Source: Sycon ciliatum (lineage: Eukaryota > Porifera > Calcarea > Leucosolenida > Sycettidae). Taken from it: a stretch of DNA of 64,000 nucleotides. The DNA is taken from contig NC_088650.1 of the NCBI RefSeq assembly GCF_964019385.1, forward strand, positions 21,958,002-22,022,001, given 5' to 3'. Of the stretch, positions 14,297-57,176 are shown in pieces. Position numbers and translations under genes: made by a program. The notes below the pieces were generated by a model, which did not search any database, had not been told where the DNA came from, and saw only the letters and a program-made list of their open reading frames with translations. The stretch's first letter is position 1; the number at the start of each line of letters is the position of its first letter.

Positions 14297-16428
14297 TTAT
14301 ACAATCATGTACTTGTACATGTACTGATGATGTAGAAGAAATAATAGAATACAAAAATTGCAGCTCTAAAACAATAAACATACATGAACCAAAACGGCAA
14401 AAGCCATGAAGATGACGATTTTATAATTATTTTAAATTATTTACCCATCAATCGGATGATTATAGCCATTATATTTGGTCGTCTCCATTCTTGTGCAATC
14501 ATGCATATGTAGGTTGGTTCTCTTCATGTTATTGTGACCAATTTCATAGATGTTGGTTGCCTTGTTGCTTTCTCTCCCCTCTCCTCTCACCCAAGCCATT
14601 CTGCATAAGCGAAGCTGTGGACGCAGCATACTGCTGCTACACTTCAACGCGGGAATGCGTGTAATAATAATAATCAATCGGATCGGTCCAATGCCTTCGC
14701 AAAAAAGCGTATTTTTGGGTAAAGTAGTTACAGTCGCACACGAACTGGTACAATCATGGTACCGGCGGGTAGGTTCACACGGAGATCTCGCACTTGCAGT
14801 CGTACATGTACAGTCATGTATTAAAACTCTACTCTACTACTACCGTGACGTGTGTAGTAGCACTCCAGTACAGTACATACATGTATACCTGGCACGGCCA
14901 CCGCCCGCGATAAGTAACTGCGGGTACGAGCGTTGTGCGCAGCATTATTTTGTGTGTGGGACCCGTGAAAATCACACCATGCACTTGTACTACAATATTT
15001 ACTCACGTAACTCAGTGACGTGACAGTCAGAGTCACCACAAAGCCCGCGCCGACCAAGTGCATGCAGACTGCAGTGGGATCCCCAGCAAGCTGCGAGAAC
15101 AGCCTGTACTGACTACAGCCTACAGTGTAGACTGTAGAATCTACAACAACATACTACAAGACAGTACAACGACTAGTGGTAGTAGGGCAGGCAACGCATA
15201 CCAGAGGCAGAGGCTGGGGCAGGAGTACTACTCAGTACTGGAGAGTAGTGATGACTGTCAGTGACATGATGCAGAGCACTTGAATCAGCTAGTACAGTCA
15301 TAGTAGAGTCGTCGTAGAGATCGAGAGTGGATCGAGTCGAGGCACGCACATGGCACTCAACACGACCTGGGACACTCGTCGCATGCACACCAATCGTGAG
15401 TACTGCGGCCAAATACTGAAATAGCGTGGGACTACTATACGGCCTGCCTGGGTGAGCCACTACAGCCTGTACAGGTAGTCTGTGGCACCTATGCACCTCA
15501 TCATCAGGCTCATGAGTCATGTACATGAGCTGGCCAGTACCAGTGGCATGCGTGCGTGTAAAGTGAGTTGCAGCCACAAAATGCATGGTGGTGGCCAATC
15601 GACCTCCAAGCTCACTTTGTGCACACTAGCGCCAGCCGGAACGACAGGGAGTGAAGTGAACACACTGTGCTGCGTAGTGTGTACTACGCACAGTAATCAG
15701 TACTTCTGTTCAGAACTCCGCGCTCCGCGCTAGCAGTTCGCTGCAAGTCCAGTAGCCGTTCTATTTCAAAGGGCCTTAGTCGCTGCAGCTCAGTGTGTCG
15801 TCAAAGCAGTGGCGTCATGGCGTAGTACCCTGTCGTAATTCCCCACTGCTTCAGAACCGTATTTCTTGCACGCCATTGTCCACCGGAGAACAGAGATACT
15901 ACTTAGAGCAAGCGGTAGCATTGCGTTTTTAATTGCGATGACCAGGATCTACTTCTGTGTGTAGTTTGAATGTTCTAATTGCTCATCGCTGGAGATATAC
16001 GTGGCGTCGTAGGCAACTTCGCAAAGTCAAACAGCAGCAGCAGCAGGAGTGTAGCCTATAAAGACTCGAGCGCAGGGTGAGTTTGGGTTAGTTCTGGTTT
16101 TGTTGAAATCTGAAATCAAGAGCTGCGCCTGAGTTACTGTGGTAATGATACGTACTGACTGACACGGACTGTCTGCGGTGGCTGGATTGGAAACTTCGTG
16201 TGTACAAATTACCAATCTCCCCTGATCGCTGGCTATTGCGCTTAGTTTTGTGCATGGATGTATGCGTAGCACTTCAGTAGTCCATGGTTTATGTGATTGT
16301 TCACTTGTCCGGAACACAACGACATTACGTTACTGTAGGTCAGCGTGCGCGCTGTCCGAAGAAAGCAACTAGTTACTTGTAGTACGGTTTCTCATATTCT
16401 GTGTAACAGTGCTGGATCCTTGAAGACC
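14297..16428. promoter_or_regulatory. 5' flank of zinc-finger gene, copy A
   Basis: This sequence is conserved in unit B up to the start codon (46010-46843 and 50724-51788, split by the RAG1-like transposon). It likely holds the promoter and 5'UTR. A possible acceptor (TTCTGTGTAACAG, ending 16409) 20 bases before the ATG suggests an upstream non-coding exon. I cannot place a transcription start; no TATA box stands out. No other gene seen. Confidence 0.4.
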
Positions 16429-19189: not shown

Positions 19190-19979
19190 TCATTGAAATC
19201 CGATGGGATGAGTGGGGCCGGCACCCTTACTGCTTTCAGCGCACGTACATGTAGTTTACGTACATACTGTAAAAAAATGGACCAGCAGTGCTCGTGGCCG
19301 AGTACCTAAGCACTGACCGAGTAAGATCAATAAGACGTCAGATAACGGTAGCAACTGAAATGCGACCGCTGAATGTTTACATAGAAATGCCACTGGGCTA
19401 CTGGGCCACTGGGCTACTGGGCTAAAACGAATTTCAGTGAGAAGCGTGCATGCCAGCAAAGCTTGAAGATTAATTTTATGTAACATGGGAAATTGTGGGC
19501 ACAAGTTATGCCCAAGTTATGCACAAGTTATGCCGTCATCATCCCAGGCCAGCATTCCATGAAGCCTTGGAATGTAGCTTGCGCTCGGCTCGATGGCGCT
19601 CGCCTTCCCTTCTTTGGAATTGGCACTAATATCCATGAACCTTCCCAGTTGGAAGGCCGTTGGTTAGCGCTATCGAGCAGTGCTCAAGCTGACTTTCAAG
19701 CCGTGGAATGTCTCAATACTCCCTGTCAGTTTTGTGCTAGATTGTGCACGTCTGACTGTTCGAAATCTGGTTTAGTTGGTGGACTCGATCGCATAACTTG
19801 TACCCACAATTTCCATGTCACAACGTTTTCGTGTGACTGTTGTCTCCTCGTCGGTTATTTAAATACTTTAAACGGAGATACACTGGCAATTCCAGCGAAT
19901 TTTAAATGAAGAAATTTCAGCAGACACATGATTGCACAGTTGTGCATGGCATTCTGAGTTACAACCGGCACAGAGCCTG
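19190..19979. other. Intronic sequence conserved between copies
   Basis: Intron sequence matching about 53763-54434 in B, including a plus-strand open frame (19493-19909 in A; 53926-54360 in B) that reads almost the same for about 115 codons. No domain is recognised. It could be an unannotated cassette exon or simply recent sequence without stops. Confidence 0.3.
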
Positions 19980-20677
19980 TCTGACCACTGTTTGACCACT
20001 GTTTGACCACTGTCTGACCACTGTCTGACCACTGTCTGACCACTGTCTGACCACTGTTTGACCACTGTCTGACCACTGTCTGACCACTGTCTGACCACTG
20101 TTTGACCACTGTCTGACCACTGTCTGACCACTGTCTGACCACTGTCTGACCACTGTCTGACCACTGTCTGACCACTGTCTGACCACTGTTTGACCACTGT
20201 CTGACCACTGTCTGACCACTGTCTGACCACTGTCTGACCACTGTCTGACCACTGTCTGACCACTGTCTGACCACTGTCTGACCACTGTCTGACCACTGTC
20301 TGACCACTGTCTGACCACTGTCTGACCACTGTCTGACCACTGTCTGACCACTGTCTGACCACTGTCTGACCACTGTCTGACCACTGTCTGACCACTGTCT
20401 GACCACTGTTTGACCACTGTCTGACCACTGTCTGACCACTGTCTGACCACTGTCTGACCACTGTCTGACCACTGTCTGACCACTGTCTGACCACTGTCTG
20501 ACCACTGTCTGACCACTGTTTGACCACTGTCTGACCACTGTCTGACCACTGTCTGACCACTGTCTGACCACTGTCTGACCACTGTCTGACCACTGTCTGA
20601 CCACTGTCTGACCACTGTTTGACCACTGTTTGACCACTGTCTGACCACTGTTTGACCACTGTTTGACCACTGTTTGA
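19980..20677. repeat. 11-bp minisatellite, about 63 copies (unit A)
   Basis: TCTGACCACTG tandem array with T/C variation (TTTGACC versus TCTGACC). On the minus strand all three frames are open and read the same 11-residue repeat (SGQTVVRQWSD), because the period is not a multiple of three and contains no stop. Unit B has about 21 copies (54435-54671). It lies in the intron; I do not call a protein. Confidence 0.97.
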
Positions 20678-21231
20678 CTGTTCTGCGGTATGCCTCCACG
20701 GCATTTCCAGCACTCTTTGCATACGAGGTGCTTCCCTCGTAAGTTAGAACTGTAAGTTAACCTTTTGAGCACGCGTGACGTTCTGACACGTCATGACCAC
20801 TGCCACTGTAACAGGCGTGACGTTCTAGAACGTCACGAGTCAGTACGGAACTACATCGATGCCGCGTTTCTTCCGTGACGTGGCGTCGAGCTGTACCGCT
20901 GCACAGAGGACTCCTAGGATGTACGAATACAATAAAAAAATGCGAGTCGCTCCGTAAGTTTGAACTGGAGTTACATGCGCGTGCATACATTTCAAAATAC
21001 CAATTTCGCGTAAAACTACCTTTCTGAAAACGGTCATAACTTTTGTAATCTTTGTCGCATTTCCAAAACAAAAAACCAGTTCTGTGTTCAGGAGACATGA
21101 AAGAATCGTTTGAAATCAAGTTTGCTCACATAGAGTGAATTAAATGTTTTACTGCGTGGCAGAGGTTTTCAATGGGCCCAGGCTCAAAAGGTTTAAACTA
21201 TAGTATAAGTTAACTTACTCAAATAAACACT

Positions 21232-21295
<64 letters not shown>

Positions 21296-21341
21296 CGTGC
21301 GTGCGTACGTGCGTGTACGCACTGCACTATTTGCTACCTAG

Positions 21342-21959
21342 ACAAAAAACGCAACAGCAAGATCAATGTGAATGGCTTCTCTGATGAACCATCGTCACAC
21401 CATCCCAATGGTGATGAACCATCTCCACTCCATCCCAGTGATGCCAGTGATTCGATTTCGAGCACCACCAGCACTGTCCTTTCTGCCAAAAAGAGAAAAC
21501 GCCAATGCAGCAATAGGACGACTCCTAAGCGAAACCAGAAAAGGAGTAAAAAGGCGACGCAAGCGTGTGAATCAACACAGGTCCTTGACCTGCCTGGTCC
21601 TTCATTGGGTTCTTCGTTTAGCAGTGGCATTCCTTCTACTCCTGCTGCTGCTACCGTGGCATCACCATCAACGTCATCACCGTCATCACCGTCATCAGTA
21701 TCAGCGTATGACAGGTTATTGGATGATGTGGAGTCACGGTCTATGAGCAGTTTATCAGAAAGGCACAAGGCGCAGGAGCACAAGGCTAACAAGAGTAGAT
21801 CTTCATCCTTGAAAAGTAATACAGCACAATTCTCTGACCAACACCAGCAGCAGACTCCGCGAACCGCCATTTCGTCGGCTCTGTTTGGAGGAAGGCGAAG
21901 GAGGCAACCGGAGTCATCATCGAACCTTGACGATCTCCCATCGCCACCTTATCAGGTTC

Positions 21960-21992
<33 letters not shown>

Positions 21993-23647
21993 TCACGTCT
22001 GCAATTACTGAGCCCAAAATCTACAGCCCAATGGTGCTGGTTGCAGATTTATCAGCATTCAAAAGCATGCCCAGTGCTGCCAAGACAACAGGCGTGCTTG
22101 TTCATTCGACTCCAGCTAGTGATCCTGCGCAAGTCAACTCTCATAGTACTGCTGCCCAGGCTAGCTCCACCAGTGCCAAAACAACCTCCATCGGTGCCCA
22201 AGCCACCACCACCAGCTCACAAGCAACCTCCACCAGTGGCCAAGCAACCTCCACCAGTACCCAAGCTAGCTCCACCATTGCCCAAGCTAGCTCCACCAGT
22301 GCCCAAGCTAGCTCCGCCAGTGCCCGAGCTAGCTCCACCGGTGCCCAAGCTACTTCCCCCAGTGCCCAAGCCGCACAGACAATGGGGCTACTGGTGACTT
22401 CTGAAAGAATTAGTGTAGTAAACGTGGACTCTTCTCTGTTGGCTATTGATGAAATGACGAATGGCCAGCCATTGTCAACGTTACCCACATTAGTTGCAGC
22501 AGCGACCTCAGTTGGAATGTCTCAGCCACACTACCGTAACACCAGCCACAGCCAGCACAATGAGATACCTGGTCATGATACCATTGTCTGCCCTAAGCCC
22601 ATTGTAGCTTCAATGTACTTCCTGCAGAATACATTGCAACTGCAAGCTGAAGGCGTAGACAGCAACAACAACGGCGGTCGTCAATACCGATGTGCAAAGT
22701 GTAACCAGTTCTTTGATGACCCTGTTGCACACCAGAGACACCCTTGCCATGGAAAGCAAAAGCAGCTCTCCTGCGAAATTTGCGGGAAGAAGTTCACAAA
22801 GCGTGGGAACCTGGCATCCCATGAACTTCTTCATGCAGCGCAAAACAACAAGGTATTGTATGCCGCCCGGCAAGAGGCAGTAACTACGGCCAAGCCCTAC
22901 AAGTGTGATAGCTGTAATCGGTCTTTTACTCATCAGAATACACTAACCAAGCATAAGAGAGTGCATACCGGTGAACGGCCGTTTTCATGCGCATCGTGTA
23001 GCAAGACTTTCCGGCAAAGATCTACTTTGAAGGAGCACATGCGTGTACACACCGGCGAGCGGCCGTACAAGTGTGATGTGTGTGGCAAAGCCTTCAGCCA
23101 GTCTAGTATGCTGACTACACATAGGCGTATTCACACCGGTGAAAAACCAATGACCTGCGAGACGTGCGGACGAGGATTCAGTGACCATTCGCATTTCAGC
23201 AAGCATCGACGCAGCCACACGGGAGAGAGGCCCAATCAGTGTCCGGTGTGTGACAAGAGTTTTGTAGCCAGCTGCGAATTGACCAGGCACATGCTGACTC
23301 ACAATGGCGAAAAGCCGTACGCATGTGATCTTTGCGGACAAACGTTCAGGGACCCCAGCCATTGCAGACGGCACCGGCGCAGAAATCACCCAGATGTGGA
23401 AGCACCATCAAGAACGGATAAGGCGGAGAAAATGACATCGTCAAACGATGATGGCATCTCTAACGATGAAGATGATGTTGAGTATGACGGCCAGGATGAG
23501 GATGATGATGATGATGCCGGTCATCCTGAGGACGACGATGCTGGTCATGCTGTGCCTACTGAAGATGCTGAGGATGGCGAGGAAATAGAACAAGCCAAGC
23601 ATGACGTCTCCTCTCCCTGTCCAAGTGGCCAAGATGAACAATGCTGA
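21342..23647 (+). CDS. C2H2 zinc-finger protein copy A, exon 2 (terminal)
   Basis: This exon runs from the acceptor at 21341 to TGA at 23645-23647 and completes an 839-aa protein with exon 1. Features in order: basic patches KKRKRQ and KRNQKRSKK (likely nuclear signals), a Ser/Pro/Thr-rich low-complexity region, about ten degenerate heptads such as AQASSTS, then eight C2H2 fingers at about residues 520-755. Finger 1 is degenerate (CAKC..HQRHPCH) and a spacer separates fingers 2 and 3. Fingers 3-7 are joined by TGE(R/K)P-type linkers, the mark of DNA-binding arrays. The C terminus is acidic with an Asp run. It is likely a nuclear DNA-binding regulator. The upstream GT-repeat reading frame (from 21239) is intronic. 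Confidence 0.9.
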
Positions 23648-29245: not shown

Positions 29246-32118
29246 TTAACCGTAGAAAAACACTTTCAGCAATCTTTTAAACGGGGTTGGACGACGAGTG
29301 GACGTGAGTTCCTGTGGCAGGGTGTTCCAAAGCTTCAGCGCGGAAACCAATGGTCGGCTGTCGCCAGATGTTCGCCGAGTTAGCGGAACAACGTATTTGC
29401 AATTGTCATTGCCACGGGTGTTACTGGGAGGTTGGAGGGCTACTCTATCTTTCAGAAGAGGGCTGATGCTGCTGGTGTGGACACGGTGCATAAGGAAACG
29501 AAGTTTGCATTTGGCACGTTCAATTACAGGGGTCAGGGAAAGGCGAGTGTATATAGGAGTGGTATGGGACGGGAAGGGCAGATTGGCTACGCAGCGAACA
29601 CATCGCTTGTCGAGGACAGTGAGCTGGTGCCGCTGCTGAGCCGTGAGGGCAGAGAAGAACGCGTTTGATCCATAAAGCATGTCAGGAAGTATAAGGGCAG
29701 AATAGAAGAGGAGCGACTGGCGTTCAGATCGCGACGGGCGGATGGTTCTCAGGGTGGTTAGCTTCTGGGAAGTTTTACGTACTATGCTGGAGACCTGCGC
29801 GTCCCACCGAAGACAGGAATCGATCTGTAGGCCCAGAAAGCGAGCAGTGGTGGTCTGGGTGAGAGGCGTCCCGTTGCAGTTAACGTTGAGTTCCAGGGTA
29901 CTACGGCGTGATGCCTCAATGGCTAAGACCTGCGTCTTGTCAGGGTTTAAAACCAGGCCTTTCCCGTGCAGGTAGTCAGCCAAGTTTGACACAGCAACTG
30001 ATAAGACTTGATTTAGGGTTGCTACGGATCTGCTTGCGGTGTCGAGAAGGATGTTATCCGCAAACAGCTGGGAGTGTGCTGGGCTGGTGACGCTATGGAC
30101 GTCCATGGTATATAGTGAAAACAGCAAAGGACCCAGTACACTACCCTGAGGGACTCCACACTCGCATGCAGTTAGGCCCGAGCACTGCCCACTCGCCAGA
30201 ACTACTCTCTGTCGACGGTCCGTGAAGTAGCTCGCAAACCAACGCAATGCAGTCGAAGATACACCCAAAGCAAACAAATCTTGGATCATGAGCTGGTGCC
30301 GTACTTTATCGAATGCCTTGCTCATGTCCACTAGTGCTACGCCAGTATGTAGCTGGTGGTCTGCTGACGACAGATAGCGGTCCATGGCCAAGGTCAAGGC
30401 ATCTTCCGTGGAGTGTTGTGGCCGGTACGCAAACTGATTGGCGGGCAAAAGTGAATGGGTTTGTAATAAGTCACACAGGCGTTTGTGGACTATCTTCTCC
30501 AAGATCTTCGATGCTATTGGCAGCAAAGATATGGGACGGTAATTGCGCGATGCGTTCTTGTCACCAGACTTAAATAGGGGTCGAACATTTGCAATCTTCA
30601 GGGAGACAGGCACAATGCCAGACGAAAGGGATGCATTAATTAATATGGATAGCGACGGGGCGAGGGCTGCTTCACAATGCTTCAGGATGAATGCCGGAAT
30701 ACTGTCGCTGCCCTCAGCTTTACGAGCATCGAGTCTCACGAGAAAGGTGAATACCTCCTCAACACTAGTGGCCTGGAATTCCCGCAAAGGTTCCCGTGGT
30801 GACGGACCACAAGGTAAGGATAGCTGCACAGGTCTACTTGGATCGGAGACTACTCCACTGAATTGCTCGCTGAGTGCTTCTATACTGACAGAGGGTGGAG
30901 TGGAAGTTTTGGTCCGGCCGCTGAGCTCGTTTATTGTCTTCCAAGTGAGGCGCGCATTTACCTGACTCCGTGTGAGAAGATTCTTGTAGTACTGGGCCCT
31001 GAGGCGTCGGGACATTCGCTTAGCCTCGGCTCGTGCTGATGTGAATACAGTTCGCAGATCCATGTCAGTCGGCGAGGCTCGCCAGCGACGATGTGCTGCG
31101 TTGCGAAGTAGAATAGCGTCGTGGAGGGCAGGTAATTTCCAAGGACAGGACGTGCGGGAGGAAGATTTAGGCCGATACGTTCGGACAGGAGCGTGCTCGT
31201 CCAAAACGGAAACAATCTTCTCAGTCCAAGAATACCACATGGCATCCACAGTCTGAGCGGTTGAAACATTCTCCAGGTCGCAATGATGCAAGTCATGAGC
31301 GAATCGGTTCATATCGATCCTTGCTAGGTTACGACCACACTTGACAGCAGGAGGTTCCACAGTGCACTTGAAAGGTAGGTCAATTACGACCGCAAAGTGG
31401 TCGCTGATGGTACAAGGGAGAACCGTGCAGGAGGTTATCGCTCCATCCACAGCTAGGGCGAGATCCAGTGTTGTTCTGCTGCCGTGGGGGGCAATGCGGG
31501 TAGTGTCCTGCACCTCGTTGCTGATATTGAACTGGTCGCAGAAGCGATGTAAATTGTCGAGCTGAGGGGCTTGGCGCCGGCTTACGTCGACATTGCAGTC
31601 ACCCGTTAAAATCAGTGGGGACGATGGCATTGACGCCGCTGCTGTGTCAACTGCGTTGGACAAGTCCTGCCAAAATTGTACTGGCGTGCCTGGAGGTCGA
31701 TACACTCCTCCTAGGAGAATCCGGTTTCGATGACTTCTGATCTCCAGTAGCAAAAGTTCTATGTTGGTGTGGTCTCCCACCACTTGTGCTTGAAAGCGAT
31801 TGTGGACATAGGCTGCTAGGCCACCTCCATGACTGGGACGATCCCTCCGGAAAAGTGGATGGTTAGGTATGCTGAGCAAGCTGTGTGCGGTAGAGATAGA
31901 TAGAAAGGTTTCCGCCAGTATCATGACGTCAATGTTTTGAGATAGTATGAAATCCTCAACTTCACGCTTTTTATTAAAAAGGTGCACACATTGAGGAACC
32001 CTACTCTAAGATTAAGACTAAGGCCGTTGTTGCTGTTCGATAAAGGGGCTAAATTAGGGGTGTGTGGTCTAGGATGGAATGGGATTGCATTAGGGTTTAG
32101 TGGGGTGTCGGCATTCAT
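29246..32118 (-). pseudogene. LINE ORF2: APE endonuclease + reverse transcriptase, inactivated
   Basis: The uninterrupted part (31987-29246, 913 codons) contains endonuclease motifs LAET, GDCNVD and SDHF, then RT motifs including VDMSKAFDKVRH, GVPQGSVLGPLLF and FADN. The normal (F/Y)ADD catalytic motif is FADN here (Asn codon at plus 30053-30055), which should abolish polymerisation. The endonuclease start continues in another frame upstream (LRVGFLNV, 32118-31980), so a one-base shift near 31975 breaks the N terminus. In an intact element this enzyme nicks target DNA and copies LINE RNA into it. This copy is dead by two lesions. Confidence 0.88.
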
Positions 32119-33081: not shown

Positions 33082-33551
33082 GGCGAACCCGTATAAAACA
33101 AGACAAAATCAGCCAAAGTTGGAGCTAGAATGCATCTTACTCCTACACGTACAACTTTCTGAACATGTACATGTAGCCTCATGTCATGACAAGCGTCTAC
33201 GGCCATTGGTGATGGTAAAAACTTTCTCTCCAATGGCGGTCAAACATTATTTCATCGACATGGCTCACTTGCAAGAAACTAACCCTGACACTTACCTCCT
33301 TACACTGAGCTCCGAACAGCAAGGATTCAACCAGCGAGAGCGTGGAGAAAGAAATTCCCCGTCAAAGCCGAATGCCCACGAAACAGGCGTGCACACTGCA
33401 AAACATCACGCAATGTTGTGTGTGTGTGGGGGGGGGGGGGGGGGGAAGGGGTGCGTAACGTCGCTAGGAAGAAAGAAACTACGGCCAAAAAACTATCACG
33501 GGCCGGCCGTGTCGACAGGTACTAGGTCACAGTAGGTGCACTCATCATTAA

Positions 33552-34412
33552 AGGGGAAGTATACCCTAAAATCAAATTTTCACCAGTTGTAGTCTTCTGG
33601 GTGCTGAGTCGAATGGTCTTGGTCCGAGGAAGCTGCGACGCTCCCTTCCTACTTGAATCCCAATCGAACTCGCGCACTTCCACCGAAACTGGGTGACTGC
33701 GCCCTACTAGATGGGGATTTGTATGCAAAATGTCACTAAAAGCGCCATTTCGTTCTTATAAAAGCACGGATGACCGCGATTGGCCCATATGTTGTAGTCT
33801 TTTGGACGCTGAGTCGACTGGTTTTGGTCCGAAAAGGCTGCGATGCAGCGTTCCTCCTTTATTCCCAATCGAACATGGTTGAACAAGCGGTCACGTGCTC
33901 CTGGGTGCCCAAATCACCTGGTCACCGCGCCAGCAGGCGAGAACTTTCACACCAAGGTTCAACTCGAGTTCAACTCGAGTGACAGGACTGCACCCAAAAA
34001 AGGTCAAACAGGCTAGTAAGTTGTACCCTGCAGGCACGGTGACCAGGTGACTGGCGTACGCAGGAGCACGTGACCGCTTGTTCAACCATGTTCGATTGGG
34101 AATAAAGGAGGAACGCTGCATCGCAGCCTTTTCGGACCAAAATCAGTCGACTCAGCGTCCAAAAGACTACAACATATGGGCCAATCGCGGTCATCCGTGC
34201 TTTTATAAGAACGAAATGGCGCTTTTAGTGACATTTTGCATACAAATCCCCATCTAGTAGGGCGCAGTCACCCAGTTTCGGTGGAAGTGCGCGAGTTCGA
34301 TTGGGATTCAAGTAGGAAGGGAGCGTCTCAGCTTCCTCGGACCAAGACCATTCGACTCAGCACCCCGAAGACTACAACTGGTGAAAATTTGATTTTAGGG
34401 TATACTTCCCCT
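33552..34412. mobile_element. Large foldback element with TTAA target duplication
   Basis: Starts AGGGGAAGTATACCCTAAAA and ends with its reverse complement, flanked by TTAA (33548-33551 and 34413-34416). The arms are about 400 bp each and almost perfectly inverted, so the same open frame appears on both strands (33770-33982 plus, 33970-34194 minus). Unit A has no insertion here. TTAA duplication points to Kolobok or piggyBac mobilisation. No transposase of its own. Confidence 0.88.
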
Positions 34413-34480
34413 TTAATTTTGCGATTTCCTCTTTCTGCACTATGCCTGGTCAACAACTCGACTCGTAGTAGATTTACTGA

Positions 34481-38449: not shown

Positions 38450-39875
<1,426 letters not shown>

Positions 39876-42800
39876 CGGGGGACAGAGAAGACAGAACACG
39901 AAGGAAAGCCGATGATTATAGTGTGCAAGTACATACCGTTCTAACGTTCACACGTTATCAGGGTATCTATCCTACTCCCCGGTACTGATAGTGATAGATC
40001 GTTGATAGGTACATGCACGTACATGTACATAGTAGGACGTGTCAAAGTTGCATGATGCATGTTTCTCTAGTAACTATGATTCCCATACAATCGAAATTAT
40101 TACATGCACAATACTGACACAATTACAAGCACGGCCGATCAAGGACGTGTGCAATGGGATGATTCCTGGCTGCTGCTGCTGTCCATAACAACGTACATGT
40201 AGTGCCATAAGGTCGACATGAGGTCGACATCACGACGTCAGCACTGAGGCAGGTCGTGTCTCATGATGAGACTGAGGTGTGACCACAGACTTACAATGTA
40301 TTTGCTCTGTTCAAGCGTGTGGCCCGCTCAAATTCAGTTCCCTATGGAATTGTCTCCCTCCCAAAATCACATCGGTAGCCAGCCTTCATTCTGCATACTA
40401 GTAAGTATCTCGCTCAATGTGCTGTTTACTCTACTAGTATTTCACAGCCCACGTGATCACAACCACGTGATAGGTTATATTTCTGTTAAAACTTTGACTC
40501 TTTTAATAGCTCATCGTCCTGGCAGAATTTATACACCATGGCCGTGGCATAGTTCCCCTTTTACCCTTCCGTGCTCACCTCTCACCTGTGACACTTCCGA
40601 TTGCGAAGGCGTAGCCGAGGTTTCTCAAAACAGTGATTATATTATGTGGGTTGTGAGCAACACCGACTCACACTCAATCACTGCTTTTCACAAATTCATT
40701 AAAATTAATTATAATTTTAAGGAAAAGGTGTTTCAACGTTTCGGTCATAAAATAACCATCATCAGGAATGCATTCATGAAGTGGGCAAACTGGCTAGGCC
40801 ATAGGATGGGTTTAAAAATGGACAGTGCTGTGAGGAGTGTATATTATGTACTCTCAAATTTATTAAAACACAAGACAATGTGAAGAAGAGGTGCTGCGAC
40901 TTCGGCGACACATGTACTTTTTGTACTTGGGGGATTGTGTGTCGCTCCCTACGTGGGAGCTCGCGCTTTTCCTGCCGACTTGAATTCTCACTTGACTGGC
41001 TCACGACCGTGCCATTCAGAGCACACGAGAAGTCCATCGAACCTTCCACTCGGCAAACCTGCAAGGACGCACCACTCCCTACTCAATACACAGTATTTCG
41101 GGAAATTCACCCCGCCGCCATCAGTTGAGCTTGAGTAGGCTAACGAAATTTCTGCTCCGAGAGCACTGCATTATGTAGTGTTCTCTGAGCCAAAACATCA
41201 CTAGGGATACCAACTTACAGTGACAAAACATCACTAGCCATACCAACTTACAGTGACACTCAGTTTCCAGCGCGACAAACACCTCGCGAACTCCAGGCAG
41301 CAGCGTACGTCAGTGTCGCTAAGTAGATGCTGAACAAACGTTGAGGACCGTTGGCCATTCACAACGCTGTTGCTTTCAAACCATAAAATTCGCAAGCCGG
41401 CGCTGGGAACAACAATGTGAAGCAGCGGTGACTGAGACTTCGGCGATACTTTGGGAATTATCTCCGGAATTGTGTGTTGCTCCCTACGGGCTATGTAGGA
41501 GCTCGTACCCGCCAACTTGAACTCTCGCTTCACTGACTCATGACTGCCATCCAGAGCACACGAGAAGTCCTTCGAACCTTCCACTCGACAAACCTGCAAG
41601 AAAGCACCACACCCTGCTCAATACACAGTGTTTCGGGGAGTTCATCCCTCACCAGTTTAGCTTTGTAAATTTTAACTTAAAAGTTCGTCCGTCCACGTTT
41701 CAACCGGCTACACAATTGTATTGAGAAACAGAACCAGTTTAGGAAGTTTCGCTTGTGCAAGGCCAGCACCATGCCTGTGAAGGCCGTGATAGCAGGGTGG
41801 CAGATGCAGCTCCTAACGGGGAGCTTGAGTTGTAGGCTAATGAAAAGTGTTCTCCGAGAGCACTGCAATAGTGCTCTCCGAGCCAAGACATCACTACGAA
41901 TACCAACTTACAGTGACATACCATTTCCAGCGCGGCAACTACCTCGCGAACTCCAGACAGCAGCGTGATTGAGTCTCGCTCATTGAGGTGACGCTGAGGA
42001 CCGTTGGTTATTCGCATTGTTGTTACTTCCCAACCATATAATTGAACAGTTCACATAGATATAGCAGAAATGTTGCTTGAAAATAACTCGGAAAACATCC
42101 TGTTCCACTTCTGTCTTGCAGGAATCTACATGTGAGTGTAGCCTGAATTTTCACCGTCCTCACTCACTCTCAGAAATTCACCCCGGCACTTCCCAACCAT
42201 CTACTTGTACATGCAGTCATGTAATTCGCAAGCCCGCGCTGGGGACAGCAGTGTGAAGAAGAAATTGTTGCGACTTCGGCGATACTTTAAGAGAATAATG
42301 TGTCGCTTTCTAGGTGGGAGCTTGCGCTTTTCCTGTCGACTTGAATTTGACTGGACTGACTGACTGACTCACACACAGCATGTACCATGTAATACGCCCG
42401 TCGCAAGAGAAGCACGCAAATCTGCAAATGCACTGGATGTGCACCCACAGATTTTCTCTTTATAGCAAACTGATGACGTGTGATGTAGCGGATCTGATTC
42501 TGATTGAAACAGATCAAGACAAGCGCCAGATAACTGTCTAATCCACACAACTGGCGAAGCCATGTGAATCGACCCCCCAATGCACACCTGGTGTACACCA
42601 CACGGAGTACATCGGAATACTTAGTAGGACGGCGAAGACGCTGTTACCTATGCACACTTGAGGACAACAGCAGCAGGTATTAACATTAACAGCTCACAGG
42701 GCGAAGGAAACACTGAGTTGAGAACAATGTTCCTGCCTGCACGCCACCCATACACTGGTTTGTAGAGTCTCTGAAAACGGGTTTATGGTTGCAGCCAGGA

Positions 42801-46839: not shown

Positions 46840-46852
46840 GCACCACGGCTGT
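46840..46852. repeat. TSD and left terminus of RAG1-like transposon
   Basis: GCAC followed by CACGGCTGT. The first bases CAC match the CAC start typical of RAG signal heptamers and Transib/ProtoRAG ends. Confidence 0.85.
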
Positions 46853-46930
46853 TTTTTTGCGCGATTTTGGCCCATTTAATATGGCGGCCGAGAACGCGTA
46901 AAAATTCATGATTTTCGTCCAGGAATTGCT

Positions 46931-47299
46931 TTAGACAGCTAAGTATTCCACAGACTTCGCCACTTTTCGTCTCCAATCAGCTTGGTTTGCCCTGAGTTTT
47001 CGATTTTTCGGCTTTGCCTTTCCCTCAGCTCCGCGTACATGCCGCGCGACCGCTGCTTCGATTTGTTTCCTTGTCTCTGGAGGACGTTTGTTTTCCTCTC
47101 CTGGGACGTTCGTCGTGCAGAATTTGAGCCAACGTTTGTGCCCCAAATAGTATCCCCAGATTTGAGTATCGTTTAGATAATTTGGAATCGGGTAGGTAAG
47201 TGTCCGTTCTGGTGCTGTAGAAAATTTCGTTCCGTGACGTGCATCAATTCCGTGTGACTTGCGTTTGCAATATTCCCACACTTTTGGTATTTCCCACAC
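46931..47299 (-). CDS. Possible small divergent ORF inside the transposon
   Basis: A 122-codon minus-strand open frame between the left end and the transposase start. It has no ATG (first usable codon is GTG, preceded at once by a stop), so it would need splicing or be chance. The peptide is basic with repeated Trp/Lys (IWGYYLGHKRW, KRPPETRKQ, KPKNRKLRANQADWRRK). No domain recognised. Sharing about 60 bp with the transposase start, it would be divergently transcribed. Confidence 0.2.
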   Translation of the reverse strand: MWEIPKVWEYCKRKSHGIDARHGTKFSTAPERTLTYPIPNYLNDTQIWGYYLGHKRWLKFCTTNVPGEENKRPPETRKQIEAAVARHVRGAEGKAKPKNRKLRANQADWRRKVAKSVEYLAV

Positions 47300-47359
47300 T
47301 TACTGGATCGTAACTGCAATTGTGTTACTCTCCAGTTGTTGTGAGGACGTAGAGTGATC

Positions 47360-50300
47360 ATGGATGAGCATAAATCGCTGCTGCAAGAAGTCTGCCGAGT
47401 CGGTGGCAGAAAGTTTTCCTGTTTCAAGCAGTCTACTAGATATAGTGTGGAAAAATATAGTGATCTGCTGAAATCTGTACATGGCATTGATATCTCGAAA
47501 GATTGCCCAGACATCCACCCACCATACATCTGTATTCTGTGCGAGCGAGCCCTAAAGAGAGCCAGTAGAAAGGCAGACCATTGTGGAGGTGGCTGTGGAC
47601 CTGTCACCAAATGGGAGCCACACCATCGCACAAACTGCTCTGTGTGTGCAAGCCAGAAAAAAAGGGGCGCAAGCGCGCACCATGCAAAACCAAAAACAGC
47701 ATTGCGAGGTGCCGCACTCCTGACAGCACCCAGCCACCAGAGTGATGATGGATCACCTGCACACGCAGCCGGCAGCAGTGTAAGTGGTCTAGATATCAGT
47801 GCAGAATGCATACAATCAAGAGCAGCGCGACAACATCGTGCAATATTGCCGCTTGACAGGGACAGATTTTTGGACAGAAATGCGGTGCAAATTTGCATCA
47901 TTTGTAAGAATGCCGCAGACGGTATCCTGGAAACAGCATGCTGCAATGAGCTGAGTTGTGCAGAGTGCATAAGCGAATGGCTCAGCACGAATAACACATG
48001 CAAGTCTTGTAGCGCTGACATGGCTGCATCATCGATGCGCACGCCCAGCATTAGTCTAGTCAGGGTTGTCAGCAGCCAGTCCATACACTGCGACTTCCAC
48101 GAGCCATCGCTACGTGGATGTCCTGAAGTCGTGCCGCTGCATGACTTGCAACGTCATGTCAACATGTGCCCGTTCAATCCCGCAGAGACGCCATCATGTA
48201 GCACAGCACGTAGCCCGCCGCCGAGTACGACACCTATCCGCTCAGTGCGCCCATCGTCAACAGTGGCTGAGGTTCTAAGTGCTTCTCCGTCGAAGTTGAA
48301 GGGCAATGTGGCAACCAACCTCACTGCACGCCTGGTCACGGCTAGGGCAGAGGGTGGCAGGCTGGAGGTGAAAACTGGCGAGGGAGGCAGGGGCAAACCG
48401 CAAGTTTACCAGCTTACACCAGAGTGCAGTATACCGTCAACCGATGCGTCTGCCTCAACACTCAAACGCCGCGCTGCTGAGCTGACCCGAATTGCTGAGT
48501 CCGTTTGTGGTGGATCGGATGGAGCTCGAGTGCAAATGATTGCTGGGCTGAAGCGGCTCTCATCAGCTGCACAGCAGGAGCTCTTGCAGGAAGCTGGCTT
48601 GAAGTGTAGTTCACCTTCGCCTGGCACCGCGCTGGCCATCAAGGCAGACCTCCGACTGCCATGGAGCCAATTGAGGAAGCTGCGGCAGTGGCTCAAGGTC
48701 TTCGGAGTAAAGTTGGAGTCTGAGCGTTCTATACGAGAGTTCATCGCGAAGACGCTGCCCAGCTACACCGCTACAGAGCTGCCGATGTCGAAGCGGAATG
48801 GCGATGTCTCCATGGCTGCCACTGTATTTTTTCCGGACCTTGTCGCTGTTGTCATGCATTTCCTCGACATCCTCAATGAGAGTGACAGCTTGACATGGCA
48901 TTCAGGCACGATTCCACAGTCCGAAGTATGGCTCAAGATTGGCGGTGATCACGGAGGAGGCAACTTTAAGTTAAGTTTGCAGATCGCCAACGTACTAGCA
49001 CCGAACGCAACGCACAACACCATTCCACTGTGCATATTCGAGGAGAAAGACACTCCGGCCAATTTGAAGACTGCTCTTGGACAGTATGCTCCACAGATTG
49101 AGCATTTGCAAAGCACGGTATGGAACGGCAGGCAGCTGAGAGTGTACATGTTCGGCGACTACGAATTTCAGACTATGAACTACGGGCTGTCAGGTTCTGG
49201 CGGACTGCGTCCATGCTTGCACTGTTTGTGTCCGAAGAAGGAGATGGCCAATCCAAATGATGATAGAACAGATGCGCATAGACAGGCACGCACACTGACT
49301 ACATTGGCTGATGATTATGGCAGATTTTCTGAAGCTGGCTCGCAGATATCACAGGCAAAGCACTATAACAATGTCATTCGTCCGTGCATATTGCCAGTGC
49401 CCGTTGAAAATGCAATCATCCCGGTGCTGCATCTCGACTTGGGCATCTACACATGGATGTTTGAAGCCCTTCTGAAGGACCTGCAGGAACTGGACTCGAA
49501 GCTTGCTTCGAAATGCAATGCTGACACCAACGATGCTGGTACGTTCACCAAGTTGTGTGCCCTCCACGAGAAACTCCGCTGCGCACAGTTGCAACTTGAC
49601 CAAGCCGTCAACGAACAGCAAATGGTCCAACAACAGATGCAATTTGTAGCTCTCCACATCCAGAACCAAGCGGAACAGGCGTTACTGGCATTGGTGACTA
49701 CTCTACAGCAAACATGTCAGGCAGCAGTTACGAAGACCCAGCAACACACTTCGACTGTCGACGCCTTGAAGGACGAAATTGCCAAGCTATGCCGCAGTAA
49801 GGACTTCAGTGGCCCATGCGTAGCCTCTGTGGAGCCTGTTCTCCAACACCACAAGATTGAACGTCAAGTGTACCACGGTGGTGCTTTCATCGGCAATCAC
49901 GTCCACCAAGCCTTGAAGCCCACCGTGGCCGCTGCCATCAGCCATGCTCACGTACCAGTCATCACGTCCAGGTGTCCAGTCCTGGCGGAGGAGGCCCAAA
50001 CAATAGCATCTTTACACGAGAATCTGATGAACAGCTACGCTTCTTGTCGAGCTATCTTCAGTCACAGCCAGGCAGTTTCAGCAGACGAGATGGATAAGCT
50101 AGAGTCTGAAGTTCGGCGCTTCTTGAGTATGTGCAGACGACACGTTGTGGCACGGCGACTTGGAAACATCACGCCGAAACTTCACCTGTTAGAGAATCAT
50201 ACGGTGCCGCTCATCAGGAAACTTGGCGTTGGTCTGGGCCTGCTCGCGGAGCAAGGGGCAGAGAGCTTGCACGCCAGTCTCAACACCCTCAACGCCATCT

Positions 50301-50440
50301 ATAAAAACATACCAGGAGACCTCGCCAGGCTGAAAGTTGTCGCCGAGCAGCATCTGCTAACAACCACCAAAGAAGCCAGTACGCTGGCTCCTCGTCCACA
50401 GAAGAGGAAAGCCGAGGACCAAGGTCCAGTCTCCTCGTAA
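47360..50440 (+). CDS. RAG1-like transposase, 1026 aa
   Basis: The ATG at 47360 has A at -3 and G at +4; a GTG two codons earlier is not a likely start. Seen in order: residues 11-16 CRVGG and 53-96 IHP..CILC..WEPHHRTNCSVC, matching the RAG1 N-terminal region (CRVCG, IHP, C..C, EWHPH, CDIC); RING-like finger 179-217; C2HC finger C244/C254/H266/C270; GGRGKP (342-347), matching the RAG1 nonamer-binding GGRPR; LAIK..LPSY (425-469), matching the RAG1 pre-catalytic region; then the DDE core: D530 (KIGGDHGGG), D600 (FGD), C619/C622, H942/H947, E968. Residues 705-810 are helical and Gln-rich. It would cut and paste the element in the nucleus. RAG1 itself makes V(D)J breaks with RAG2. No introns, no stops. 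Confidence 0.9.
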   Translation: MDEHKSLLQEVCRVGGRKFSCFKQSTRYSVEKYSDLLKSVHGIDISKDCPDIHPPYICILCERALKRASRKADHCGGGCGPVTKWEPHHRTNCSVCASQKKRGASAHHAKPKTALRGAALLTAPSHQSDDGSPAHAAGSSVSGLDISAECIQSRAARQHRAILPLDRDRFLDRNAVQICIICKNAADGILETACCNELSCAECISEWLSTNNTCKSCSADMAASSMRTPSISLVRVVSSQSIHCDFHEPSLRGCPEVVPLHDLQRHVNMCPFNPAETPSCSTARSPPPSTTPIRSVRPSSTVAEVLSASPSKLKGNVATNLTARLVTARAEGGRLEVKTGEGGRGKPQVYQLTPECSIPSTDASASTLKRRAAELTRIAESVCGGSDGARVQMIAGLKRLSSAAQQELLQEAGLKCSSPSPGTALAIKADLRLPWSQLRKLRQWLKVFGVKLESERSIREFIAKTLPSYTATELPMSKRNGDVSMAATVFFPDLVAVVMHFLDILNESDSLTWHSGTIPQSEVWLKIGGDHGGGNFKLSLQIANVLAPNATHNTIPLCIFEEKDTPANLKTALGQYAPQIEHLQSTVWNGRQLRVYMFGDYEFQTMNYGLSGSGGLRPCLHCLCPKKEMANPNDDRTDAHRQARTLTTLADDYGRFSEAGSQISQAKHYNNVIRPCILPVPVENAIIPVLHLDLGIYTWMFEALLKDLQELDSKLASKCNADTNDAGTFTKLCALHEKLRCAQLQLDQAVNEQQMVQQQMQFVALHIQNQAEQALLALVTTLQQTCQAAVTKTQQHTSTVDALKDEIAKLCRSKDFSGPCVASVEPVLQHHKIERQVYHGGAFIGNHVHQALKPTVAAAISHAHVPVITSRCPVLAEEAQTIASLHENLMNSYASCRAIFSHSQAVSADEMDKLESEVRRFLSMCRRHVVARRLGNITPKLHLLENHTVPLIRKLGVGLGLLAEQGAESLHASLNTLNAIYKNIPGDLARLKVVAEQHLLTTTKEASTLAPRPQKRKAEDQGPVSS

Positions 50441-50710
50441 ACAGGTAAGAAGACAGCGTGGTGACAGCAATGTCTGTCTTCGTGTTTTGTATTTCCAACG
50501 CTCCAAAGAAAAACATTTGGAGCACCAGATCATGCTCCTCTTTCAAATTTTCAAACGATCTTCAACTGTTTGCGTTTTTTGTGTCGAATCATACTGAAAA
50601 CCAACTTGGTTTTGTTACTATTCACAAGAATTTACCGATTCGCATCGAGTTTCCAAAACTTCTCTAAAACCCGGTGGAACGACGCCATATTGTAATCTGG
50701 TCAGCCGCGG

Positions 50711-50723
50711 ACAGCCGTGGCAC
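50711..50723. repeat. Right terminus and TSD of RAG1-like transposon
   Basis: ACAGCCGTG followed by GCAC. Read inward: CACGGCTGT, then a 22-base spacer, then ATGGCGTCG at bases 32-40. Confidence 0.85.
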
Positions 50724-54780: not shown

Positions 54781-54818
<38 letters not shown>

Positions 54819-54870
54819 CGTGTGCGTGCGTGCGTACGTGCGTGTACGCACTGCACTATTTGCTACCTAG

Positions 54871-56985
54871 ACAAAAAACGCAACAGCAAGATCAATGTGA
54901 ATGGCTTCTCTGATGAACCATCGTCACACCATCCCAGTGGTGATGAACCATCTCCACACCATCCCAGTGATGCCAGTGATTCGATTTCGAGCACCACCAG
55001 CACTGTCCTTTCTGCCAAAAAGAGAAAACGCCAATGCAGCAATAGGACGATTCCTAAGCGAAACCAGAAAAGGAGTAAAAAGGCGACGCAAGCGTGTGAA
55101 TCAACACAGGTCCTTGACCTGCCTGGTCCTTCATTGGGTTCTTCGTTCAGCAGTGGCATTCCTTCTACTCCTGCTGCTGCTGCTGCTACCGTCGCATCAC
55201 CATCAACGTCATCACCGTCATCACCGTCATCAGTATCAGCGTATGACAGGTTATTGGATGATGTGGAGTCACGGTCTATGAGCAGTTTATCAGAAAGGCA
55301 CAAGGCGCAGGAGCACAAGGCTAACAAGAGTAGATCTTCATCCTTGAAAAGTAATACAGCACAATTCTCTGACCAACACCAGCAGCAGACGCCGCGAACC
55401 GCCATTTCGTCGGCTCTGTTTGGAGGAAGGCGAAGGAGGCAACCGGAGTCATCATCGAACCTTGACGACCTCCCATTGCCACCTTGTCAGGGTCGTAGTA
55501 GTAGTAGTAGTAGTAGTAGTGTCACGTCTGCAATTACTGAGCCCAAAATCTACAGCCCAATGGTGCTAGTTGCAGATTTATCAGCATTCAAAAGCATACC
55601 CAGTGCTGCCAAGACAACGGGCGTGCTTGTTCATTCGACTCCAGCTAGCGATCCTGCGCAAGTCAACTCTCATAGTGCTGCTGCCCAGGCTAGCTCCACC
55701 AGTGCCAAAACAACCTCCATCGGTACCCAAGCCACCGCCACCAGCTCACAAGCAACCTCCACCAGTGGCCAAGCAACCTCCACCAGTGCCCAAGCTAGCT
55801 CCGCCAGTGCCCAAGCTAGCTCCACCGGTGCCCAAGCTACTTCCCCCAGTGCCCAAGCCGCACAGACAATGGGGCTACTGGTGACTTCTGAAAGAATTAG
55901 GGTAATAAACGTGGACTCTTCTCTGTTGGCTATTGATGAAATGACGAATGGCCAGCCATTGTCAACGTTACCCACATTAGTTGCAGCAGCGACCTCAGTT
56001 GGAATGTCTCAGCCACACTACCGTAACACCAGCCACAGCCAGCACAATGAGATACCTGGTCATGATACCATTGTCTGCCCTAAGCCCATTGTAGCTTCAA
56101 TGTACCTCCTGCAGAATGCATTGCAACTGCAAGCTGAAGGCGTAGACAGCAACAGCAACAACAACGGTGGTCGCCAATACCGATGTGCAAAGTGTAACCA
56201 GTTCTTTGATGACCCTGTTGCACACCAGAGACACCCTTGCCATGGAAAGCAAAAGCAGCTCTCCTGCGAAATTTGCGGGAAGAAGTTCACAAAGCGTGGG
56301 AACCTGGCATCCCATGAACTTCTTCATGCAGCGCAAAACAACAAGGTATTGTATGCGGCCCGTCAAGAGGCAGTAACTACGGCCAAGCCCTACAAGTGTG
56401 ATAGCTGTAATCGGTCTTTTACACATCAAAACACACTTACCAAGCATAAGAGAGTGCATACCGGTGAACGGCCGTTTCCATGCGCATCGTGTAGCAAGAC
56501 TTTCCGGCAAAGATCTACTTTGAAGGAGCACATGCGTGTACACACCGGCGAGCGGCCGTACAAGTGTGATGTGTGTGGCAAAGCCTTCAGCCAGTCTAGT
56601 ATGCTGACTACACATAGGCGTATTCACACCGGTGAAAAACCAATGACCTGCGAGACGTGCGGACGAGGATTCAGTGACCATTCGCATTTCAGCAAGCATC
56701 GACGCAGCCACACGGGAGAAAGGCCCAATCAGTGTCCGGTGTGTGACAAGAGTTTTGTAGCCAGCTGCGAATTGAACAGGCACATGCTGACTCACAATGG
56801 CGAAAAGCCGTACGCATGTGATCTTTGCGGACAAACGTTCAGGGACCCCAGCCATTGCAGACGGCACCGGCGCAGAAATCACCCAGATGTGGAAGCACCA
56901 TCAAGAACGGATAAGGCGGAGAAAATGACATCGTCAAACGATGATGGCATCTCTAACGATGAAGATGATGTTGAGTATGACGGCC

Positions 56986-57045
<60 letters not shown>

Positions 57046-57176
57046 CCGGTCATCCTGAGGACGACGATGCTGGTCATGCTGTGCCTACTGAAGATGCTGA
57101 GGATGGCGAGGAAATAGAACAAGCCAAGCGTGATGTCTCCTCTCCCTCTCCAAGTGGCCAAGATGAACAATGCTGA
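54871..57176 (+). CDS. C2H2 zinc-finger protein copy B, exon 2 (terminal)
   Basis: Acceptor TTGCTACCTAG ends at 54870; stop TGA 57174-57176. The exon has exactly the length of copy A (2306 bases) because indels cancel: B has two fewer Ser/Ala heptads and fewer Ser codons but more Ala and a run of about 20 Asp. All eight fingers and their linkers are intact. Finger-region changes are few (RPFSC to RPFPC; CELTRH to CELNRH, which is helix position 5 and not a usual base contact), so both copies probably bind the same DNA. Both copies look functional. Confidence 0.9.

Follow-up and report, generated by a model that had tools for sequence, protein, structure and literature searches.

A Chapaev-type transposon of the sponge Sycon ciliatum with a RAG1-like N-terminus and ends of two different spacings

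The origin of the N-terminal domains of RAG1, the enzyme behind antibody gene assembly, and the reason for the two spacings of its signals are old questions, and both are raised by a transposable element in a 64,000-nt stretch of the genome of the calcareous sponge Sycon ciliatum (contig NC_088650.1; this whole stretch is called the window). The sequence-only reading of the window had described the element, at positions 46844-50719, as a complete RAG1-like transposon without RAG2 and as a RAG1-only lineage. Our analysis makes it very probable that it is an autonomous, recently mobile cut-and-paste transposon of the Chapaev type, in which an N-terminus resembling that of RAG1 and a core with a predicted fold of the RAG1 type are combined with one short and one long two-part end. 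The asymmetry of the ends, which is absent from the earlier account, is the part that seems new. The element has the following outline:

46840..46843, strand-neutral: left 4-bp target-site duplication (TSD), GCAC
46844..50719, plus strand: probable Chapaev-type autonomous transposon of 3,876 bp, delimited by its termini, its TSD and near-identical copies elsewhere
46844..46852, plus strand: 5' terminal 9-mer CACGGCTGT, exact
47360..50440, plus strand: transposase open reading frame (ORF) of 1,026 amino acids (aa), ATG start, single exon, no internal stop
50711..50719, minus strand: 3' terminal 9-mer, inverted and exact, reading ACAGCCGTG
50720..50723, strand-neutral: right 4-bp TSD, GCAC

Is the element complete? 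The claim that it is was confirmed by the exact 9-bp termini, the GCAC on both sides and the one intact ORF. The inverted repeat stops after the 9 bp, and the letters further inside the two ends are unlike. All element DNA outside the transposase ORF amounts to 516 nt plus 279 nt. Also correct was the statement that RAG2 is missing, as the element contains one sense ORF of at least 150 aa and no second sense gene; the only further ORF of this length is antisense and has no Pfam match. A second site in the window, at about 15336-15360 in the duplicated unit A, had been taken for the same locus without the element. It has indeed the same flanks and lacks the element. However, it reads GCACGCAC and thus contains the duplicated 4-mer twice, and a two-copy junction fits it better than a one-copy junction at three gap settings (scores of 133.5 and 127, 126 and 118, 132 and 126). 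For these two reasons unit A may be an excised site and not a never-occupied one. This reading is tentative, since bases near the junction differ too.

Has the element moved? In the 538 Mb of the S. ciliatum genome that were searched, its ORF has at least 49 matches, a lower bound because 45 of 1,383 candidates were scored. Eight of them, the window copy included, are full-length, stop-free and 98-100% identical. Seven copies of the window family (L001-L005, L007 and L008; L006 was dropped, its left terminus being inexact) differ from each other pairwise in only 10-45 of 3,843-3,876 bases, which suggests that the family moved recently. If the ends were correctly read, other copies should have them as well, together with the 4-bp TSD, and this test named in the earlier reading was passed: an identical 4-bp duplication and ends of the type CACGGnTGT are present at 22 of the 30 ORF loci fetched (out of the 49 matches), which argues against chance. 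Among the eight other loci, L009 has both ends with unlike flanks, and at the remaining seven no exact end could be located on one or both sides, one of these loci being cut by a contig end. A distant relative, P0023, has at least 47 genome matches (45 of 1,048 candidates scored), many of them full-length and stop-free, with 38-49% identity, and five new relatives were gained from a second, alignment-based protein search. The genome holds dozens of open relatives. In the distant families the agreement is partial: CAC is always kept, and of the 12 copies from the six families whose two ends could both be read, 8 have 4-bp TSDs, but the 9-mer varies (CACGGaTGT, CACGGgTGT, CACTGCTGT, CACGGCTGA).

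How are the ends built? Inside each terminal 9-mer of the window element lie two further conserved boxes:

46873..46874, plus strand: conserved CA box of the 5' (long) end, 20 nt from the 9-mer
46878..46886, plus strand: AATATGGCG box of the 5' (long) end, 25 nt from the 9-mer
50683..50691, minus strand: AATATGGCG box of the 3' (short) end, 19 nt from the 9-mer
50698..50699, minus strand: conserved CA box of the 3' (short) end, 11 nt from the 9-mer

In four subfamilies (the L001, L012, L022 and L028 types) each end has a box AAnATGGCGkC inside the 9-mer; its distance from the 9-mer is 19 nt in 3' ends and 25-26 nt in 5' ends, and the spacer letters are unlike. The pattern CACGGnTGT-N15-30-AAwATGGCG matches the genome 456 times, while the reversed-pattern control has no match. 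Among the 100 matches listed, the spacers are 19 (53 matches), 25 (9), 26 (36) and 27 nt (2), and all 16 pairs of inverted neighbours within 10 kb consist of one 19-nt and one 25- or 26-nt end. Together with the CA box spacings given below, this is the arrangement of the 12/23 type, with one of each spacing per element and about one helical turn between them. A spacing of 20-23 nt has 2 matches in the genome (control 0). At 31-60 nt there are 11 (control 5): 7 of these come from small insertions in one of the families already seen, and 2 result from an extra 9-mer in front. Matching TSDs were found for six of ten pattern-found pairs that were checked.

The CA box was first noticed when the pattern-found ends were aligned, and was then tested in seven other families picked by protein similarity, F1-F6 from the P0023 matches and G from the window-ORF matches, with their ends set at the point where two copies diverge. 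CA is present at 20 or 21 nt in 7/7 5' ends (in F4 and F6 only a single copy out of two has retained the first letters of this terminus), and CA at 11 nt together with the ATGGCG box at 19 nt in 6/6 3' ends reached, that of F4 being the one not reached. Over all families, CA follows after 20-21 nt in 11/11 5' ends and after 11 nt in 10/10 3' ends. The AAnATGG box is present in nine of ten 3' ends (the tenth has AGTATGG) and in only five of eleven 5' ends. When the spacers were shuffled, no invariant dinucleotide arose in 20,000 trials with nine 3' ends (without F2, which is nearly identical to F1) nor in 20,000 with the seven 5' ends of 21-nt spacing (without the four 20-nt families), a statistic that ignores shared descent among the families. 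Wherever both ends of a family were read, the ORF has the long end on its upstream side and the short end on its downstream side. In our own counting, which starts from a heptamer of 7 nt, the CA box is at 13 and 22-23 nt.

Several observations weigh against a general rule for these ends. The 16 pairs represent about six families only, and twelve of them come from two. Four of the ten checked pattern-found pairs, and four of the twelve distant-family copies (in F1 and F6), have no matching TSDs. Two 5' spacings, 20 and 21 nt, had to be allowed. The families share ancestry, so that letters common to their ends cannot count as independent, and the 3' end of F5 adds no new test because it resembles that of L050, which was already in the first set. 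Viral contigs were tried for comparison and set aside: their 38 matches have spacers of 20-26 nt, 15 of them at 23, and since these are spread and none is at 19, the scan serves as background only. No description of asymmetric two-part ends with 11 and 20-21 nt was found for Chapaev in the literature searched, which covers the accessible parts of publications, Repbase and most subscription papers lying outside it.

L025 and L026 are deletion derivatives of the window family with an in-frame ORF of 762 aa, in which aa 518-787 and with them both catalytic Asps and the CxxC are missing; L047 and L048 are the ends of L025. Six of the 16 short/long pairs enclose elements of about their length (2,995-3,079 bp) that share these ends, L025 and L026 being the two inspected inside. 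Such derivatives could act as repressors.

What kind of protein does the element encode? The regions and residues considered are:

47360..47659, plus strand: Chapa, a Cys-rich region like the RAG1 importin-binding region (aa 1-100); PF12560, E 1.6e-4, slightly short of the cut-off
47891..48010, plus strand: RING finger (aa 178-217); zf-RING_2, E 0.011
48089..48169, plus strand: post-RING C2HC finger (aa 244-270: C244, C254, H266, C270), invariant in 16/16 sequences of the alignment
48335..48592, plus strand: region at the position of the RAG1 nonamer-binding domain (NBD), aa 326-411, three predicted helices, predicted local distance difference test (pLDDT) about 52-77
48617..49114, plus strand: DUF1280 domain (aa 420-585); PF06918, E 5.9e-19
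48947..48949, plus strand: D530, proposed equivalent of RAG1 D600; D in 30/30 alignment rows
49157..49159, plus strand: D600, proposed equivalent of RAG1 D708; D in 26/26 non-gap rows
49214..49225, plus strand: CxxC (C619, C622), proposed zinc ligands; C in 26/26 non-gap rows
50183..50200, plus strand: H942-x4-H947, proposed zinc ligands; both H in 20/20 non-gap rows
50261..50263, plus strand: E968, proposed equivalent of RAG1 E962 in a low-scoring alignment; E in 20/20 non-gap rows

In the N-terminal half, the signals of Chapa and RING are weak in the window protein alone but clear by homolog profile. PF12560, the RAG1 N-terminal family, was matched in 15 and RING families in up to 12 of the 16 aligned homologs (E<=1). 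The profile of these 16 homologs matched RAG1 chains in the PDB over residues 102-376 with an E value of 6.7e-22, and the RING-free RAG1 N-terminal chain 21wb matched it with 4.3e-12. Foldseek found the RAG1 dimerization domain (1rmd) in the model of the protein (E 9.6e-4).

In the C-terminal half, DUF1280 is present in 16/16 homologs. The distances from the second D to the CxxC (+19/+22) and within HxxxxH are those of RAG1. The proposed residue equivalences are based on these spacings plus a single alignment of low score, and E964 is as invariant as E968. The AlphaFold2 model, based on 30 sequences, has a mean pLDDT of 82.8 and a predicted template modelling (TM) score of 0.59. Foldseek gave 45 hits with E<=0.001, every one of them to RAG1, BbRAGL or HzTransib, and 44 span 635-750 alignment columns; the E values are 2e-16 to 3e-12 for RAG1 core chains, 3e-12 for BbRAGL and 1.5e-9 to 2e-7 for HzTransib. 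In a protein search with RAG1, the named sequences among the best 120 of 275 hits were all vertebrate. Two collinear stretches were aligned when the core only was compared with RAG1 by hhalign, with scores of 28.0 and 24.4; ten column shuffles reached no more than 21.1, and the reversed profile 18.4. The full-length profile comparison with RAG1 reached a probability of 99.5%, which comes from the N-terminus, since the core-only comparison is weak.

This weakness, together with other results, speaks against too close a link with RAG1. The best core-only E value against 16 vertebrate RAG1 proteins is 0.023 (probability 2%), and at the first Asp the alignment is shifted out of register. A single-sequence search of the PDB with aa 395-1026 found nothing at E<=10. 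The superpositions with the core chains are loose: the root-mean-square deviation is mostly 6-15 A at 11-16% identity, and TM scores are 0.24-0.40 by query and 0.44-0.70 by target length. In the N-terminal half, plain RING proteins such as TRAF6 match the profile too, from 1.4e-10, and the NBD region ('GGR'), compared alone, gave an insignificant E value of 0.3. PF12940, the RAG1 core family, does not match the window protein. In favour of the link, this model has two matches over the genome (E<=0.1), both to C-termini of decayed relatives, L031 being above the cut-off (26.4 versus 25 bits) and L032 below it.

One could therefore ask whether the C-terminal half is an unrelated transposase with a DDE/RNase H fold that was joined to a RAG1-like N-terminus, in line with its Pfam name, which is DUF1280 and not RAG1, and with the core-only comparison. 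We consider this very improbable and rejected it on the Foldseek matches, which are without exception to the RAG1 group and nearly all of which are long; in addition, the CxxC and HxxxxH spacings are those of RAG1, and DUF1280 and RAG1 were placed in one RNase H-like clade (PMC3985635). The predicted fold supports a RAG1-like core, while the sequence alone does not settle the relationship. Thus, the likeness to RAG1 asserted in the sequence-only reading holds for the Cys-rich region, the RING and the C2HC finger, and for the core at the level of structure; it was not substantiated for the core sequence and the 'GGR' motif.

To which group does the element belong? Chapaev transposons have CAC ends and a 4-bp TSD. 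The sponge element combines a DUF1280 domain with CAC...GTG termini, a 4-bp TSD, the pairs C619-C622 and H942-H947, and Chapa plus RING, and by these sequence features it is a Chapaev-type DNA transposon with a DUF1280/Chapaev transposase. DUF1280 was named Chapaev transposase in PMC3985635. Kapitonov and Koonin (2015, PMC4411706) described the Chapa domain, followed in two Chapaev subgroups by a RING, and assigned Chapaev to the Transib superfamily as one of its clades. Between the second D and the E, a C(2)C and an H(3-4)H are common to EnSpm, Mirage, Chapaev, Transib and RAG1, and the CMCT group, to which Chapaev is assigned (CMC/CMCT), has CA...TG termini and TSDs of 2-5 bp (PMC12730594). 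The element is like Chapaev in all these respects, and is set apart from the descriptions by its asymmetric ends. Because Chapaevs with Chapa and RING were published in 2015 (PMC4411706), the RAG1-only lineage is not new; the RAG1 domain order in a transposon without RAG2 was already known, and the sponge element is a full-length, intact example of it.

The other known systems share single traits with the element. ProtoRAG and related RAGL elements (amphioxus BbRAGL) also have a RAG1-like protein and asymmetric two-part ends, with spacers of 27 and 31 in ProtoRAG. However, the sponge element has no RAG2L gene, its TSD is 4 bp and not 5 bp, and the difference between its two spacings is 9-10 nt for the CA box or 6-7 nt for the ATGG box instead of 4; membership was ruled out on the TSD, the lack of a second gene and DUF1280. 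With Transib it shares the catalytic core fold, and a few Transibs have 12/23-like ends (PMC8355894). Transib TSDs are however 5 bp long (PMC8355894), and Chapa and RING are lacking (PMC4411706), so that the 4-bp TSD, the N-terminal zinc domains and DUF1280 exclude Transib as well. N-RAG-TP of Aplysia is likewise a transposon with a RAG1-like N-terminal region, but is described as consisting wholly of such sequence (PMC8355894), to which the sponge element adds a transposase core. RAG1 and its 12/23 recombination signal sequences are similar in domain order, in predicted core fold and in two-part, CAC-starting signals with two spacings about one helical turn apart. Unlike these, the sponge element is a transposon without RAG2, starts with the 9-mer CACGGCTGT, and its inner box is not an A-rich nonamer.

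How might such ends work? By analogy with RAG1, the DDE core of a transposase dimer would recognise the CAC at each tip. The inner box could be read by the NBD-like region or via a host DNA-binding protein, and its reader would hold the distal DNA. The dimer would pair one short with one long end. With roughly one helical turn between the two spacings, the inner box would lie on the same face of the DNA at both ends; two spacings could thus make the ends unlike while keeping the face, as 12- and 23-bp spacers do. RAG-type chemistry would cut at the tips, and the element would be joined to target DNA with a 4-bp stagger.

The core of the inner box, AAnATGG, is the reverse complement of CCATnTT. 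A YY1-type consensus is AAnATGGCGGC or, on the other strand, CCATnTT. The inner element of ProtoRAG, TR5, has the sequence GCCATCTTG and contains the same core; its positions 2-5 and 7-8 are needed and single changes at 1, 6 and 9 are tolerated, a dependence that was seen in cells, with a small effect on cleavage in vitro (PMC8289069). This tolerance equals the CCATnTT pattern, and the variable third base of AAnATGG is a tolerant position of TR5. The sequence AAgATGGCggcg was reported to bind YY1, and is elsewhere named an SREBP-2 motif (PMC4669652). The main text of PMC8289069 makes no mention of 'YY1'. It is tempting to speculate that the inner element of ProtoRAG may be a YY1-type site, since an element that is needed in cells but barely in vitro would be compatible with a host factor. 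For the sponge inner box, reading by YY1 is a lead.

From this we tentatively derive the proposal that a RAG1-superfamily transposase without RAG2 obeys a 12/23-like rule, according to which only a short and a long end, 9-10 nt apart in spacing, pair; with an inner element that shares CCATnTT with TR5 and matches a YY1 site, the signal asymmetry, and perhaps the reading of the inner box by the host, would predate RAG2 and the vertebrate nonamer. We regard this proposal as somewhat doubtful. It is quite possible, if short of probable, that the inner box is instead a host transcription-factor site of the YY1 type, kept for transcription or as a cofactor site, with a spacing fixed by promoter or architectural needs. 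The reported YY1 binding of AAgATGGCggcg and the identical core and tolerant position in TR5 are in line with this, although TR5 as printed is oriented opposite to the sponge box. A purely transcriptional role is however unlikely, because the 3' end, which is remote from the start of the ORF, has the box as well, and because both boxes are retained in the derivative L025, which lacks both catalytic Asps. Further, AAnATGG, missing from 6 of 11 5' ends, is less constant than the CA box (11/20-21 nt).

Alternatively, the asymmetry could be an inherited accident, i.e. the ends of the ancestor differed and no pairing rule exists. This too is possible, on the unlikely side. Descent alone would give the constant order of long upstream and short downstream ends; most Transibs have symmetric ends (PMC8289069), and invertebrate RAGL enzymes were argued to read mainly the terminal 15-17 bp and to be fairly insensitive to asymmetry (PMC7204232). 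On the other hand, the spacer letters have diverged and their lengths barely so: the 100 listed matches comprise 12 short and 11 long clusters (below 70% identity). Moreover, spacings of 20-23 nt are nearly absent from the 538 Mb, and no short-short or long-long combination is found among the 16 pairs.

The comparison is important for the second of the questions raised above, as the short and long ends resemble the 12/23 signals of V(D)J recombination, here without RAG2. According to a review, the 12/23 asymmetry is recognised only when RAG1 is accompanied by RAG2, and the 27/31 ends of ProtoRAG are the only asymmetric ends of invertebrate RAGL elements; its own figure legend also lists oyster RAGL elements with asymmetric ends and Transibs with 12/23-like ones (PMC8355894). 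This genome, in which dozens of open elements without RAG2, some of them very young, keep the one-turn asymmetry, provides a natural series in which one can examine whether the asymmetry belongs to the RAG1-type enzyme as such.

In addition to the element, the window contains a tandem duplication, its units spaced by about 33.5 kb (e.g. 21239-23647 and 54786-57176), which carries two copies of a C2H2 zinc-finger gene. An ORF of the long interspersed nuclear element type, with endonuclease and reverse transcriptase domains, is located at 29246-31987 on the minus strand. A 400-nt inverted repeat has arms (33547-33946 and 34018-34417) that are 97% complementary and 71 nt apart. Two repeats have open frames: an 11-bp minisatellite at 19855-20772, open in three frames of the minus strand and encoding repeats of the type VRQWSDSGQT, and a long GA/CT simple repeat at 39117-39934, in which both strands are open.

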